Shown here: piece by piece, positions 6,367 through 38,127 of the stretch | How positions within the stretch are numbered: the stretch's first letter is position 1 | Layout of the letters: each line of letters begins with the position of its first letter | Source: Scardovia inopinata JCM 12537 | GTDB lineage: Bacteria; Actinomycetota; Actinomycetes; Actinomycetales; Bifidobacteriaceae | Assembly (NCBI RefSeq): GCF_001042695.1 | Contig: NZ_AP012334.1 | Coordinates: forward strand, 1,612,001 to 1,676,000 | Reading direction: 5' to 3' | Length of the DNA: 64,000 nt | Translations under genes and position numbers: made by a program | Notes under the pieces: generated by a model | What the model was told of the DNA's origin: nothing | What the model saw: the letters and a program-made list of their open reading frames with translations, nothing else | The model's database searches: none

Positions 6367-6553
6367 AAATTTGAAGTAGTAGTTCCCACGATTATTTTGT
6401 GGAGACTACTGCCCTATGTATTTTTGGGATTAATGCTCAAAATTGTGTATGGGTCATTATCTTCTTCTGTTTGGGATGTAGTTTCCCAGGATATCAATAA
6501 CTCACCTTCTTACATGTGAATGTAACGATTAAGCTGGCAATCAGGAAATAAAA

Positions 6554-6638
6554 ACTCCTACGCACCCGTCAGAGGCCACTTACCCTTGCTGCATTCCTGC
6601 CCTGGGGGGATTCGGCGACATAACGCCGCGTAGGAGCT
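6554..6638 (-). ncRNA. ffs: Signal recognition particle RNA, small bacterial type
   Basis: The minus strand contains the conserved SRP core GGGCAGGAATGCAGCAAGGG inside a long hairpin whose ends CTCCTACGC and GCGTAGGAG pair. This is the 4.5S-like RNA without an Alu domain, which binds Ffh and directs membrane-protein translation to the translocon. The pairing arm is followed on the minus strand by a run of T (positions 6550-6554), a natural terminator. The gene borders the accessory island, and small stable RNA genes of this kind are known as island junctions. Confidence 0.93.
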
Positions 6639-6644
6639 TAGTTT

Positions 6645-28397: not shown

Positions 28398-29497
28398 ACT
28401 GCCGCCTTTCTGACCTGTGGCAGCAGAGCGGTAACATCACCGGATCTGTCTAATCCAATTCGGGTTGAGGAATACTTCTCCTTCTTTACCCCTATATGTT
28501 GAATCCATTGATCCCACTGAGGGGAATACCGGGCTGGACCGGAACCGTCCCACACAGCCATCACACGACCTCGGAGAATTCCCTCTTTGTCTACCTCAAA
28601 ATGCCCAATTTGCGATATATATCGTCTACCACGCAAACGATCCATATGCACCAAACAATCAAAAGCACCTTGAGCCATGAGAGCAGTAGCCTGAGGCTGG
28701 ATTCCAGCCAGCAAACCCAATGCCGACAAACGGGCAGGCAACCGCTGCACACTGTCGGCATGAATAGTCACCATGCCTCCCCTATGCCCGGAGTTAAAAG
28801 CGCGCAGCAGGTCAGCAATCTCTTCTCCCCTGCATTCGCCCAATACAATACGGTCTGGCCTCATCCGAACCGTGGCTTTCACTAAATCTGTCAGATTGAT
28901 CTGACCCGCTCCTTCAATATTGGGTTCTCGAACCACCAGCGATTCACAATTAAGCCCTTCCAGGCTTCCTAGTTCGCGGATTTCTTCCACTGTCACCAGA
29001 CGCTCACTCTGAGGGCATTCCATCAAGAGCGCCTTCACCATGGTTGTTTTGCCTGTTCCAGTTCCCCCACTCACTAAAAAAGTTGCTTTTGCCTGAACCA
29101 AAGACCGCAACAGTTCTTCCCATTCGGGCGGGAATGCTCTCCCTGCGCGGAGATCTGGCAAATTCGACCGAAAAACATCAGGAAGTCTGATAGATAAGGC
29201 AGCTCCCTGTTTCACGATTGGAGCAATAACGGCATGGATACGAATCCCCTCAGGGGTTGATGCATCAGCAATGGGGCAAGAATCATCTAGCCTGCGGCCA
29301 AGCTGAGCGCAAAGCCGCACAGCAAAATCACGCATAACTTGGGGAGAGCTCAGTCCTGAATCTACATATCTTTCCTGCATACCCTGCCCGCTGTCAGCCC
29401 ACACCCGACCATCGCTCGTTACGACTATATCGGTCACATGCGGCTGACAGGCCAGAGATTGAAGCGGCCCCCAGCGAAAATTCTGCCCCTGCATCAA
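28394..29497 (-). CDS. tadA: TadA/CpaF-type secretion ATPase
   Basis: Hexameric ATPase that powers Tad/Flp pilus assembly, 367 residues. The N-terminal domain contains PIADASTPEGIRIHAV. Walker A is GGTGTGKTT at 144-152; the Asp box appears as VTVEEIRELGSL. Walker B is RPDRIVLGECRGEE, followed by a His box FNSGHRGGMVTIHADS. These are CpaF-family signatures. It overlaps the CpaE-like gene by 4 bases upstream and TadB by 4 bases downstream. Note that tRNA adenosine deaminase, also called tadA, is a different gene near 53 kb. Confidence 0.95.
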   Translation of the reverse strand: MMQGQNFRWGPLQSLACQPHVTDIVVTSDGRVWADSGQGMQERYVDSGLSSPQVMRDFAVRLCAQLGRRLDDSCPIADASTPEGIRIHAVIAPIVKQGAALSIRLPDVFRSNLPDLRAGRAFPPEWEELLRSLVQAKATFLVSGGTGTGKTTMVKALLMECPQSERLVTVEEIRELGSLEGLNCESLVVREPNIEGAGQINLTDLVKATVRMRPDRIVLGECRGEEIADLLRAFNSGHRGGMVTIHADSVQRLPARLSALGLLAGIQPQATALMAQGAFDCLVHMDRLRGRRYISQIGHFEVDKEGILRGRVMAVWDGSGPARYSPQWDQWIQHIGVKKEKYSSTRIGLDRSGDVTALLPQVRKAAV

Positions 29498-30750
29498 GCC
29501 CGCCCCTGTATTAATCCTGTTTCCTGCCTGCGATAAGACTGGCCTTGTGAAGGGCTGCCCATCCCTTCCTCTTGCTGTCCTCCTGACCTGTAAGCCGGGG
29601 AAGCAGACAAAGAAAGATTATAGAAAATGTGGTAACAGGATCGAGGAATTTTTTCAATTCCTCTTCCTTCGCCCAAACTGATATCCAGCCATTTCACCTT
29701 AGGCACAATTCCGCATATAGTGATTCCCAGATAATTACTTGCTTCTGCAAGATTAACAGTGCCCCGAGGGGGCTTGATGGAGTTATGGAAACAATGCCAG
29801 ATTAATCTTCCTCCGGATGAAGCCGCCTTTTCCAAACTGACGACTTGAAAATCAAGCGGGAAAGCACTCCGGCCAAGCCTGGTGACAATAACTTTCGTTC
29901 GTGCGAGAGCTATCATGGTTAACTCGGTCAGGATAACAAATGACATCTGATTCCGATTACCCACTTCGTTCCAAATTCTGCTCCAATCTTGCGCCTGAGA
30001 TGACAGGGAAGCTCCCTGATTAATATAAAGCTGAAATCCTCGTATTATCGCCTGGTTTATTCCGCAGTCACAAACTACTGCATCCATACATTCCCCCAAC
30101 GATCTTAGGACAGCAGAAACCTCCCACCACTGTTTGGCTGCAGGTTGTGTTGCCTTCACGCTTAGAAGCGCACACTGCTCCCACTGCACCGCTTCCCTGG
30201 CAAGAGATCTACCGTCGATCATCCCCAAGGGGGCATGGACATCCGACCACCGCAGGCCTTCCTCTTCTTCCAGCCCTAAAAGAATATCTAAGCCTCCCCG
30301 GGAAAAGTCAAGGTCGACCAAGGCGACCCTCTGTCCCATTTGGCTTAAATACTGGGCAAAGAGGGCAGCAGTGGTACTGGTTCCGCAGCCTCCGCAAGCT
30401 GAAGAAAACAGATAGAAATGCCCTCCTGTGTAAGGCTGGTTGACTGGGAATCGAGCTGCTTCAGAATGGGAGTTCCCCGGTTTGATTGCCCCAGATCTGT
30501 CAGGACCAGCGAGCTCGGTCTCGCTCCAGCCTGACCTGGTCTCGCTCCAGCCTGACCTGGCCTCGCTCCAGCCTGACCTGGCCTCGCTCCCATCAAGTCC
30601 AATCTCGTTCTGGAGGAATCCGTTCTGTTCCAGCCCATTTTTCCTCAGTCCAGCCGAAGCCGAAGCAGGCATAAAATATTCGGGCAGCTGACCGTCTTCG
30701 TCTACAGACAAATTTTTCTCATTCTTGTGTCTATCATCATTAGTATGCAT
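29494..30750 (-). CDS. CpaE/SSD-like MinD-superfamily protein of Tad operon
   Basis: Protein of about 418 residues from ATG 30750. A poorly conserved N-terminus contains 7-residue tandem repeats (SGWSEAR/TR) at about residues 55-80. The MinD-like fold follows: FYLFSSACGGCGTSTTAALF near 113-132, then VALVDLDFSRGGLDILLG. The usual Walker A Lys (GGxGKT) is replaced by Thr in GGCGTSTT, as in proteins labelled septum-site-determining/CpaE in actinobacteria, so ATP binding may be altered. It is first in the ATPase-platform unit and probably localises the pilus machine. The ATG at 30786 is less likely because its first residues are hydrophobic and unconserved. Confidence 0.82.
   Translation of the reverse strand: MHTNDDRHKNEKNLSVDEDGQLPEYFMPASASAGLRKNGLEQNGFLQNEIGLDGSEARSGWSEARSGWSETRSGWSETELAGPDRSGAIKPGNSHSEAARFPVNQPYTGGHFYLFSSACGGCGTSTTAALFAQYLSQMGQRVALVDLDFSRGGLDILLGLEEEEGLRWSDVHAPLGMIDGRSLAREAVQWEQCALLSVKATQPAAKQWWEVSAVLRSLGECMDAVVCDCGINQAIIRGFQLYINQGASLSSQAQDWSRIWNEVGNRNQMSFVILTELTMIALARTKVIVTRLGRSAFPLDFQVVSLEKAASSGGRLIWHCFHNSIKPPRGTVNLAEASNYLGITICGIVPKVKWLDISLGEGRGIEKIPRSCYHIFYNLSLSASPAYRSGGQQEEGMGSPSQGQSYRRQETGLIQGRA
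30518..30593. repeat. 21-bp tandem repeats inside the CpaE-like gene
   Basis: Three full copies and one partial copy of a 21-base unit (forward strand gtctcgctccagcctgacct plus g). They encode the heptad SGWSEAR/T on the minus strand. Copies differ by one base (gtctc/gcctc). Because 21 is a multiple of three, copy-number change alters the protein without a frameshift. Confidence 0.85.
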
Positions 30751-30798
30751 ATTTTCATTGAACAGCAGTAAAAAGAAGAATGCCAAGCGAAAAATACA

Positions 30799-35198: not shown

Positions 35199-36314
35199 AT
35201 GGTTCTGCTCTCTGATTTTCATCAGATTCTTGCCGATGGCTATGACCAATATGCCCGCTGGGGTAAAAAGGCTCCCCTGGTCCTGGCCGGAGGAGGAATT
35301 GTTTGGCGTCTGGATGCCACTGGCGAACCAGAAGTCTGTCTGGTGCATCGTCCCCGGTATGATGATTGGTCCTGGCCTAAGGGAAAACTCGAAGCCCATG
35401 AGTCTATTTTTCACTGCGCTGCCAGGGAAATTCAGGAAGAAATCGGACAGCCGGTTGCCTTAGGCATGTTTCTGGGCCATACCTCTTATCCTTTGCCGGA
35501 TGAAGGCAAGAGTGCAGGCAAAGGCACCAAGAAAAGTAAAGGCAGAACTGGCAAAGATACCAATCAGATCAAGCATGTATTTTACTGGTCTGCCCGCCTG
35601 CTTGATCACAGCCAGACTGCACATCGGTCTTCCCTCTTTGGCTCGGTTCATCAAGCAGATCCTAAGGAAATCAGCCAAATACGATGGGTCAGTCTTGACC
35701 AGGCCAAAAAGCTTCTTACTCGCTCTGATGACCGACGCCTCCTCCGCCCTTTTTCTGCCGCTCTTGAATCTGGACTGAATCAGGCATCAACCTTTGTCCT
35801 TATTCGTCATGGTAAAGCTGAAGATCGCAAAACGTGGACGGGAGAAGAAGCTCAAAGACCGCTGAGACCAACAGGAGCGGCTGCCGCCTACGCTCTGGGG
35901 AGGGACCTGGCTTGTTTCGATCCGGATTATCTCTACTCTTCTCCCTGGGAACGCTGTAAGCAAACCATGGTCCCCTATTCATTATCGTCTCAGTTGCCTG
36001 TCACCTACCTTGATTCTCAGACTGAAGATGCTTTCAACGCCGATGGGCAAAAAGCCTGGCAGGATCTGCTGGACCTGCTGATAACCAGTAATAATCAGGG
36101 CCACAATGCTGCCCTCTGCATGCACAGACCGGTTATTGGGGGCATGCTGGAGCATCTGCGTCAGCTCTGTACCAGCAAATCCCTGGCCCGGGCCCTGCCC
36201 AAGCGTAATCCTTATATGCCCACAGGAAACGCCCTGGTGCTTACTCTAATCCCAGGAGATAATGGAAACGTTCGTATTATTGATCTTCAGAAGGTGGAAC
36301 CCTGTGTCTATTGA
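35199..36314 (+). CDS. Nudix hydrolase fused to histidine phosphatase (MutT1-like)
   Basis: Two-domain protein of 371 residues. The Nudix box spans G62 to G83 (GKLEAHESI, then REIQEEIG), in the domain that hydrolyses nucleoside di/triphosphates such as 8-oxo-dGTP. The C-terminal histidine-phosphatase domain starts near residue 200 with VLIRHGKAED and continues SSPWERCKQTM and CMHRPVIGGM. This fusion and its place after ppk match mycobacterial MutT1, which clears oxidised nucleotides and diadenosine polyphosphates. A Lys/Gly-rich insert (KSAGKGTKKSKGRTGKD) sits in the Nudix domain. Confidence 0.9.
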   Translation: MVLLSDFHQILADGYDQYARWGKKAPLVLAGGGIVWRLDATGEPEVCLVHRPRYDDWSWPKGKLEAHESIFHCAAREIQEEIGQPVALGMFLGHTSYPLPDEGKSAGKGTKKSKGRTGKDTNQIKHVFYWSARLLDHSQTAHRSSLFGSVHQADPKEISQIRWVSLDQAKKLLTRSDDRRLLRPFSAALESGLNQASTFVLIRHGKAEDRKTWTGEEAQRPLRPTGAAAAYALGRDLACFDPDYLYSSPWERCKQTMVPYSLSSQLPVTYLDSQTEDAFNADGQKAWQDLLDLLITSNNQGHNAALCMHRPVIGGMLEHLRQLCTSKSLARALPKRNPYMPTGNALVLTLIPGDNGNVRIIDLQKVEPCVY

Positions 36315-37023
36315 TTCTTCAGGATTGGCCTCTACTCCGGGAAATTCTTCTATCCGGGCAGCAGGCTCCAGCTTTGCCGCTTACCGGGGAGGCTCAGCCC
36401 GCTTCTCCCGCCCCCGCCAGCTTGACCCTGCCCTGATCGACCAGCTTGATGGCGGTTTGGATCCGCAGAAAATCAGCGAGATGAGCCGAGCAACGGCAGC
36501 AGCCCTCCTAGACCGGGTCAGGCACACTCAAGATCCCATAATTGTCAATCGGGTCTTGAATCTTGTAGAAACTGAAGGCATCAATCTGATAGCCGAACTA
36601 TGGAGCAAGGAAGATGCTGAATCTCTTCCCGGAGTCCTCTGGCGTTTGTATACCATGCGCCAATGGATGATGCGCGAGAAAGTCCTCATCTCCCGTTTGT
36701 GGAGGGCAGGGGAACCGGAGCAAACAGCTGCTTCTGCAATTGCTGGCATTAATTCTGCCCCAACTGCAAGCGATATTGCCTCCACAGCGGATTCCATCCT
36801 GACCGGAGCCTTTACCGGCGATTTTGCTGTAGCCCTGGAGCGGGCAGCAGCCTTCTGCGAAGTTGTCAGCCAGGGGCTGACGAAAGTCCAGCGGGCGCAG
36901 CAGAATTCACTATCTTCGTACTCACCCGCTGATTACAATCCACCTGCAGCCCGCAGCCTGTCAGCAACCGCCCGAACCTTTGCCATCTGCGCCAAGAAGT
37001 GGCGGGAAAACAGTCTTTACTAG
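36304..37023 (+). CDS. Unknown soluble protein downstream of MutT1-like gene
   Basis: About 239 residues, no family recognised. The sequence is mostly helical in character, with ARFSRPRQLDPALIDQLDGG, a block LLDRVRHTQDPIIVNRVLNL, and LYTMRQWMMREKVLISRLWR. No signal peptide or membrane helix is visible. I chose the GTG at 36304: AAGGTGG lies 6 bases upstream and the start overlaps the previous stop, implying coupled translation. It may serve with the Nudix/phosphatase, but nothing in the sequence says how. Confidence 0.72.
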   Translation: MSIDSSGLASTPGNSSIRAAGSSFAAYRGGSARFSRPRQLDPALIDQLDGGLDPQKISEMSRATAAALLDRVRHTQDPIIVNRVLNLVETEGINLIAELWSKEDAESLPGVLWRLYTMRQWMMREKVLISRLWRAGEPEQTAASAIAGINSAPTASDIASTADSILTGAFTGDFAVALERAAAFCEVVSQGLTKVQRAQQNSLSSYSPADYNPPAARSLSATARTFAICAKKWRENSLY

Positions 37024-37095: not shown

Positions 37096-37206
37096 TATTA
37101 TGGGTAGCGCGCCGAACTGTGCTTAAGCCCCGGGCTTCATTTTTTGCCGCTGCGAGCGGCCTGCGCGCCGACAGGCGCTTTCACAGTTCGGCCTTTTGTC
37201 TTTTTT
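37096..37206 (+). ncRNA. Candidate cloverleaf-like small RNA
   Basis: A -10-like TATTAT (37096-37101) lies about 10 bases before a compact fold. The outer stem GCCGAACTGTG (37111-37121) pairs perfectly over 11 bp with CACAGTTCGGC (37182-37192). It encloses three hairpins: AAGCC/GGCTT (37125-37137), GCCGCT/AGCGGC (37146-37160) and GCGCC/GGCGC with a GACA loop (37165-37178). TTTTGTCTTTTTT follows, as in a terminator. It has no tRNA signatures (no T-loop GTTCGA, wrong arm spacing). It may be a stand-alone small RNA, or an elaborate terminator of the upstream operon. Confidence 0.5.
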
Positions 37207-37410
37207 ACACACTCTTGCTTATGAGCCAGCACCATCACATTTCTCCACAGGTCTCTGGCTTTTAGCAAGGTATCACCTGTCAGTATGGTAAATTTCTGAA
37301 TCTTCACTCCCCTCAGGGCAGCTGAGAATAATCTATCCGTAGTTATTCGTTTGCACTGTTCTAACAGCTTTAGTATAATTATGATAATTTTGGTGTAAGG
37401 AGAGTATGGG

Positions 37411-38127
37411 TTGGTTGATGTGATACAGACAGAGAATCATCAGGCCGACATTGGCAATAAAGCAGAAGCAGAATTACAACCAGGGAGCACTTCTTTGACA
37501 GAGGAAGAAAGCAGTACGATCGACTCTCCTGATACTGATCTGGAATATTTAGACTCTCACCTGCAGGAAAGCGCCGCCCCAGTAAAATATCACCGGCAGA
37601 TACACTTCCACTGGTGGCAGCTAGCTTTAGCTTTTATCCTGACAGTCACCCTGGTAACCATTGGCACCATCACCCTCACCCAACACGAAATCCACCAACA
37701 AGCACAAATACTAAAACAGCAGAAAAAGCGATATGGTAAAGAAATATACAAAAAAATGCATAAAATCGTCCACTCTAAAGAATGCAAAAAAGTAATTGAA
37801 GAAGATCTCCGAGAAACAGATCCCCATGCCTTAACCGACAAAGGAATCATCAAAACATACACGATTGTGGATTCTTCCATAACCCATAATCGTTCAGGAG
37901 GAATCGATTTTATTGTCATGATTAATAACGACAAAACACTGACTATAGATTTGCTTGTCGATCGCCAATGGATATACGACGATGAATACGGACCCTTGAA
38001 AGACACCGTTGATGAAGTATCAGGCGAATTATGGGAAAAATTGGAAACCCGATACGGCAAACAAATCCACGATGATGACTGGGCTGCCAAGTACAGGAAA
38101 GCACACCCAGAGGAATTCCCCAAATAA
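37411..38127 (+). CDS. Membrane-anchored protein with DUF1310-like domain
   Basis: Protein of 238 residues. An acidic N-terminus of about 68 residues precedes one membrane helix (WWQLALAFILTVTLVTIGTI, about 69-90). The outside portion contains KIVHSKECKKVIEEDLRETD, GIIKTYTIVDSSITHN and GGIDFIVMINNDKTLTIDLL, an arrangement that resembles DUF1310 of Firmicutes. The family name is from recollection and unverified. It is more AT-rich than its neighbours. A remnant of another gene follows it. Function unknown. Confidence 0.6.
   Translation: MVDVIQTENHQADIGNKAEAELQPGSTSLTEEESSTIDSPDTDLEYLDSHLQESAAPVKYHRQIHFHWWQLALAFILTVTLVTIGTITLTQHEIHQQAQILKQQKKRYGKEIYKKMHKIVHSKECKKVIEEDLRETDPHALTDKGIIKTYTIVDSSITHNRSGGIDFIVMINNDKTLTIDLLVDRQWIYDDEYGPLKDTVDEVSGELWEKLETRYGKQIHDDDWAAKYRKAHPEEFPK

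Follow-up and report, generated by a model that had tools for sequence, protein, structure and literature searches.

Within the window, by which we mean the whole 64,000-nucleotide stretch of Scardovia inopinata DNA that was analyzed, a short segment very probably encodes a genuine stand-alone structured RNA. Judged by comparison with relatives, it appears to be a real and widely conserved RNA gene, which is absent from Rfam 15 and has perhaps been glimpsed before in Streptomyces. The gene was placed at 37107-37206 on the forward strand; both ends are approximate, as the start was set from a -10-like box and the end from a T-rich stretch, and the predicted RNA is ~95-100 nt long. These comparisons support the original prediction of a putative small RNA with its own promoter, distinct from tRNAs and from simple terminators alike.

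All elements originally described at this site are present by direct reading. A -10-like box, TATTAT (37096-37101, +), is the presumed promoter of the RNA. Downstream of it lies the 5' strand of a perfect 11-bp closing stem, P1 (GCCGAACTGTG, 37111-37121, +), which pairs with a 3' strand (CACAGTTCGGC, 37182-37192, +), and beyond this a T-rich stretch (37194-37206, +) that may form a terminator end together with P1. The closing stem encloses three hairpins on the same strand: a first hairpin (AAGCCCCGGGCTT, 37125-37137); P3, GCCGCT-GCG-AGCGGC (37146-37160), which is also seen comparatively; and P4, CGCC-GACA-GGCG (37166-37177), which as read directly is GCGCC-GACA-GGCGC (37165-37178). The minimum-energy fold includes the closing stem and all three hairpins. 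Stability by itself is mildly unusual (z -1.71 on the forward strand, with 10 of 200 shuffles equally stable; z -2.26 and 6 of 200 on the reverse strand), and energy alone is unconvincing; it is conservation and covariation that lift the element above chance.

Standard scans of the window recognized little of this architecture. TATTAT was not called as a promoter by a simple sigma-70 scan, since that scan requires a -35 match as well, and the T-rich end with P1 was not called by the terminator scan, because the loop inside P1 is too large for it. The only terminator-like site that the scan found consists of the first hairpin and six T residues (37125-37145, +), inside the RNA; in bifidobacteria, early termination at this hairpin could compete with the full-length fold. 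ARAGORN reported 0 tRNA or tmRNA genes in the window; this agrees with the original remark that no tRNA signature is matched, and a tRNA-like RNA was rejected. The Rfam check that had been proposed was also run: with Rfam 15, no family reached its gathering score on the RNA, and no match overlapped it up to an E-value of 10. The sole Rfam match of the window was a small bacterial SRP RNA at 6546-6642 (-). A scan of ten loci from relatives gave no family at cut-off either, and other matches lay far below, so that a known Rfam family was ruled out.

Homologs of the RNA are spread over much of one class. Under the strict filters used for all whole-genome counts, a covariance model of the corrected fold (model R2) matched 214 of 345 genomes of the class, in 77 of 127 genera, and gave no match in the other 131. 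Across the phylum it matched 22 of 296 genomes, all of the same class (the RNA's own genome, 7 others from its order, and 14 of 18 further members of the class), and the listing shows none among the other ~270, 254 of which are not given singly. A BLAST search with 141 bases against 59 genomes, including its own, gave a best E-value of at most 1e-6 in 37. Within the window's own family, 24 of 37 genomes had a BLAST match; the 13 without one at E 1e-6 measure 0.7-1.5 Mb, and ten of them are less than 90% complete. Three of the matchless genomes, all from one genus (G013, G025, and G036), are 0.8-0.9 Mb in size and 99-100% complete. Because of this completeness, the RNA has probably been lost from them or has drifted, and loss in these reduced genomes is possible.

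A degenerate pattern search in named records retrieved at least 119 stretches; the matches listed include Bifidobacterium, Actinomyces, Arcanobacterium, Microbacterium, Arthrobacter, Rothia, Cellulomonas, Nocardioides, Kribbella, Jiangella, Geodermatophilus, Modestobacter, and Gordonia, and five Gordonia plasmid records match the RNA. Its own genome holds one significant copy by both BLAST and model R2 (G000:C1:1649098-1649209, E 2.5e-20), which rules out a mobile repeat. Several class genomes showed two or three matches. The strain Nocardioides pinisoli STR3 carries two copies, one beside the neighboring gene X described below and one variant copy without X behind a GGAAT-GTT promoter (L110 and L142). 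One search gave 37 matches, and those at 20.3 and 15.9 bits were put down to chance. Seven Microbacterium phage matches were weak (E about 0.1 to 0.3) and fell in an annotated tail gene. Two further records, the one IMG/VR contig (L158) and MT835541.1, an unverified record and one of two labeled "Bacteriophage sp." (L237), carry X beside the RNA. As X adjoins the RNA there, both are probably bacterial DNA, and a phage gene was rejected as an explanation.

The original prediction had named compensatory change in related species beforehand as its test. An alignment of 139 sequences, picked for the most part with the search pattern, was made from 150 loci, of which 11 were excluded as incomplete or more than 93% alike. 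Two-sided changes occurred in all 11 pairs of P1, with 94.9% of its cells paired, and in both pairs of a short inner helix, P1b; over the whole structure, 96.9% of cells were paired. For P1 and P1b, the evidence in this alignment is independent of the search pattern. CCCCGGG and P3 belong to that pattern, so that their invariance in this set exists by construction.

P1b changes the center of the fold. Of the 139 relatives, only 100 and 97 retain the two outermost pairs of the first hairpin. The same two bases (37126-37127, +) can instead form pairs with 37178-37179, and these are kept in 131 and 132 relatives. One P1b position occurs as A-U, U-A, G-C, and one G-U, the other as G-C, A-U, C-G, and U-A, and corrected mutual information, computed over all column pairs, is highest for these two. 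The 12 best-ranked pairs all fall within the structure; below them are only hints of an extension of P1b past the bulge and of P1 outward. An automatically derived structure (model R1) was set aside, as its inner pairs looked wrong, and R2 carries the correction. The closing stem, P3, and P4 of the proposed cloverleaf were retained, and the outer two pairs of its first hairpin gave way to P1b. Covariation shows a predicted fold in which the long stem P1 leads through a bulge or internal loop into P1b and then into a junction, where the CCCCGGG strand and the hairpins P3 and P4 are found.

The junction segment, CCCCGGG followed by CTTCA (37128-37139, +; CCCCGGGNYYCA in most relatives), is nearly fixed and is drawn unpaired save for two possible C-G pairs. 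CCCCGGG is kept in the BLAST-found members except one (L030), and in a broader set of 101 diverse members, whose alignment was fitted to the model structure in a way that adds to apparent invariance. The three bases after it differ between lineages. The loop of P4 is GAGA, GTGA, or GACA in most relatives. In three loci from two genomes (L181, L182, and L233), P3 has been swapped for a longer hairpin, and CCCCGGG, P1b, and P4 remain.

In the 101-member alignment, which leans towards the structure that it was fitted to, 97.1% of structure cells pair, compared to a shuffled mean of 85.2%. The covariation score was 0.384, against 0.140 for shuffled alignments, was reached by none of 500 shuffles, and stayed at or below 0.096 in slid controls. 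Two-sided change was seen in 15 of 25 pairs, a number that 1 of 500 shuffles also reached and that averaged 11.6 over the shuffles; these shuffle controls ignore the relatedness of the sequences. One pair of P3 changes on both sides in 13 of the 101 members. P4 is paired in 100% of cells in both the 139 and the 101 sequences with few changes, and varies too little for much covariation.

The promoter-like element noted upstream proved to be conserved in position. A TANNNT box lies 20-34 nt upstream of CCCCGGG in 120 of 148 loci, compared to 0-12 of 148 in other 15-nt bins; these counts hold duplicates (e.g., L031/L079), and the loci are not independent events. TANNNT is the -10 motif at 80.4% of S. 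coelicolor start sites (PMC4895711; this and all other PMC-numbered papers are cited from parts of their text). A second motif, GGAA[T/C]-N15-19-GTT, occupies roughly this position in 43 of 187 loci, where 0.57 were expected from dinucleotide shuffles; of the 189 loci, of which 187 were tested, some were fetched twice (L173/L218 and L168/L232), and at least 2 of the 43 are second fetches. The motif reads GGAAT in 34 cases and GGAAC in 9, and the GGAAT loci include Gordonia plasmids, Geodermatophilus, Microbacterium, Nocardioides, and Streptomyces-like genomes. It resembles the thiol-stress consensus of SigR, GGAATN18GTT (PMC2375139), and sites of the GGAAC form above all may be read by other sigma factors of the SigR kind. 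The copy in the window lacks the GGAAT-GTT motif, and 19 of 148 loci show neither pattern. The RNA is likely to have its own promoter. The distribution of motifs suggests transcription of the housekeeping type in bifidobacteria and many other lineages, and of the SigR/SigH type, which responds to thiol-oxidative stress, in others. Where the GGAAT-GTT promoter occurs, control by stress seems a reasonably good, if far from certain, assumption.

The RNA had been placed between a ppk cluster and a DUF1310-like gene. The downstream assignment was confirmed by Pfam (DUF1310 domain, E 8e-23; gene at 37411-38127, +), and a sigma-70-like promoter at 37350-37379 belongs with that gene. The neighbor that recurs in relatives is the upstream gene, X; no consistent downstream gene was found in the contexts seen. 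X (36304-37023, +) encodes an unannotated, mostly helical protein of 239 residues, if a GTG start is assumed; a longer frame begins at an ATG at 36262. The protein gave no Pfam or NCBIfam match, and its relatives gave only matches below cut-off (E 0.05-0.09). A predicted model, mostly helical with a mean pLDDT of 84.7, yielded no convincing structural relative (best Foldseek E 0.74; best VIA-align Z 6.5, to mixed helical bundles), so that no fold was either assigned or rejected, and X showed no sign of RNA binding. Elsewhere in the window, a reading frame at 29494-30786 (-) has several tandem repeats resembling ARSGWSE/TRSGWSE in its N-terminal part.

Of 150 loci, 107 have the stop codon of X no more than 450 nt from the RNA; X and the RNA share a strand in 96 of these and are on opposite strands in 11. 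X sits elsewhere in the fetched piece in 12 and is absent from 31, 6 of which are near a contig end, and these neighbor counts contain duplicates as well. X was found in 102 of 345 class genomes, and 101 of the 102 also carry the RNA. The one without it (G660) is a draft assembly of ~260 pieces with a truncated X match. A Fisher test of this co-occurrence ignores shared ancestry. Both places are listed for 96 genomes: X and the RNA are no more than 600 nt apart in 79 (70 with shared and 9 with opposite strand) and 2.2-5.0 kb apart in 10, and in 7 the listed places are on different contigs. Since the strands are opposite in some lineages, the RNA is not simply the 3' UTR of X, and the claim that it is more than a plain terminator gains from the same observation (11 of 150 loci; 9 of 79 close pairs). 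As 113 of the 214 carrier genomes have no X match, X could not be its sole partner. We regard X as one candidate partner of the RNA.

As the best explanation, we propose a free-standing, trans-acting structured noncoding RNA of ~95-100 nt, the synthesis of which would be set by housekeeping or stress sigma factors. In this view a protein would recognize the nearly invariant face of the junction, and the RNA may act as a small ribonucleoprotein or as a sequestering RNA that adjusts gene expression under stress. The protein-binding mechanism is tentative, and we rate it as somewhat short of probable. Recognition by a protein is suggested by an inner face (the junction strand, P4, and most of P3) that is nearly fixed while the outer stems drift, and is favored by the replacement of P3 in loci where CCCCGGG, P1b, and P4 stay. 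A fixed single strand is equally expected of a base-pairing RNA, however, and the main rival is a trans-acting antisense RNA, in which the junction strand CCCCGGGNYYCA would pair with mRNAs and the remaining fold would serve as scaffold. This alternative is possible, with considerable doubt. The segment is indeed nearly fixed and, apart from the two possible C-G pairs, unpaired, and most of the characterized actinobacterial small RNAs in the literature covered act by pairing, scr5239 being one example (PMC8388888). A complementary 12-mer, with one mismatch allowed, occurs at 16 places in the RNA's own genome, one of them the RNA gene, compared to 0 for a reversed control. However, codon usage may account for this excess. 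Eight of the 16 places were inspected: one is the RNA itself, and five lie deep in reading frames (649 to 1463 nt past the first start codon). Of the other two, one falls 35 nt inside a frame and the second 16 nt ahead of a start codon, in a frame of 125 codons. For this one genome, one 12-mer, and eight places, no clear target in a start region emerged, and the three lineage-variable bases after CCCCGGG also speak against pairing.

Three further rivals are less likely. Self-contained ribozymes and small-molecule sensors also combine a compact junction and fixed unpaired bases with covarying outer stems, just as seen here, but the RNA appears to be its own transcription unit, without a consistent gene downstream in the contexts seen, and we consider this improbable. 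A cis-acting element of X, whether a terminator, a 3' UTR structure, or an attenuator, would fit the 96 of 150 loci in which the RNA comes close behind X in the same orientation, and the terminator-like call for the first hairpin and its T-run. It is at odds with the 11 loci of opposite strand within 450 nt, with the lack of X in 31 of 150 loci and 113 of 214 carrier genomes, and with a promoter box directly ahead of the RNA, and is very unlikely; the narrower reading of a mere 3' UTR or terminator of X was ruled out by the opposite strands, the carriers without X, and the promoter box. That the conservation reflects DNA rather than RNA, as a binding site or mobile repeat, could draw on the palindromic CCCGGG and the copies on some Gordonia plasmids, but is scarcely credible given that compensatory changes follow RNA pairing, the own genome has a single copy, and the promoter box keeps a fixed register.

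Several known RNAs were compared with the family. Some loci are labeled Streptomyces-like because of their gene order and because Scr6925 or Scr6106 scored above cut-off in three genomes of this genus. There the RNA is flanked by a HelD/HelR-related gene, which scores below the NCBI cut-offs, and by a malic enzyme gene, which is followed by an HU-type gene. We take SCO2951 to be the malic enzyme. SCO2952 is listed as a HelD homolog (PMC10719064, PMC8655204), and small RNAs are named after a flanking gene in the cases described (PMC9130861, PMC8388888). One of them, scr2952 of S. coelicolor, is reported to have confirmed expression, to be conserved in a majority of the Streptomyces tested, and to be present in Rfam (PMC8388888, second-hand from Vockenhuber et al. 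2011). From gene order and naming, scr2952 would occupy the same gene interval, and the RNA in Streptomyces may be scr2952. The reported Rfam entry is a poor fit, however, as the Streptomyces-like loci scanned gave no family at cut-off. The Rfam entries Scr6925, Scr6106, LPR17, and VqmR were checked as possible scr2952, and none is scr2952. The part of PMC8388888 covered gives no class-wide family, fold, or function for it.

Ms1 RNA (RF02566) is likewise a widespread actinobacterial small RNA with its own gene, described from 824 species, with no room found for it in Bifidobacterium and Actinomyces (PMC9130861). At about 230-300 nt (or, more loosely, 200-300 nt), however, it is longer than the ~95-100 nt seen here and differs in fold and flanking genes, and its profile had no match in the window and reached only 8.8 bits in a relative locus (L218; cut-off 162). 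6C RNA (RF01066) shares short length and C-rich unpaired segments, but has two stem-loops with at least six C each (PMC8388888), whereas this RNA has one CCCC strand, in a junction. The RNA has no loop with six C, no 6C match was found in the window, and a match beside the RNA in L218 scored 21.4 bits (cut-off 47). The motifs of Weinberg et al. 2010 (PMC2864571) resemble it as conserved intergenic structures with covariation and no assigned role; in the part of that paper covered, however, no actinobacterial name is tied to the RNA, and the Rfam scan, which includes many such motifs, found none here. In the literature searched, which did not extend to subscription papers and preprints, we found no description of a class-wide family of this RNA. 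The covered parts of PMC3388012, PMC11678152, PMC3765725, PMC10771440, PMC2864571, and PMC4895711 do not mention it, and none of the four gene and RNA names looked for occurs in that of PMC4681348.

Small RNAs that span a class are few. This is a short RNA with a fold well defined by covariation, present in 77 of the 127 genera sampled, and it offers a concrete RNA, a search model, and, in X, a candidate protein partner. Many members have a promoter like that of a thiol-stress sigma factor, and in one branch an uncharacterized protein gene adjoins the RNA. The widest reading of these features, which taken as a whole we consider rather unlikely, is that of an old, unrecognized RNA class of the Actinomycetes: a ribonucleoprotein RNA whose junction and GNRA-like hairpin would bind a conserved machine, under thiol-stress sigma control in many soil lineages and housekeeping control in bifidobacteria, and joined in one large branch by X as its dedicated protein. 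The family would in any case provide an entry to post-transcriptional control in bacteria for which only a few small RNAs have been given a role, a situation described for Streptomyces (PMC8388888).
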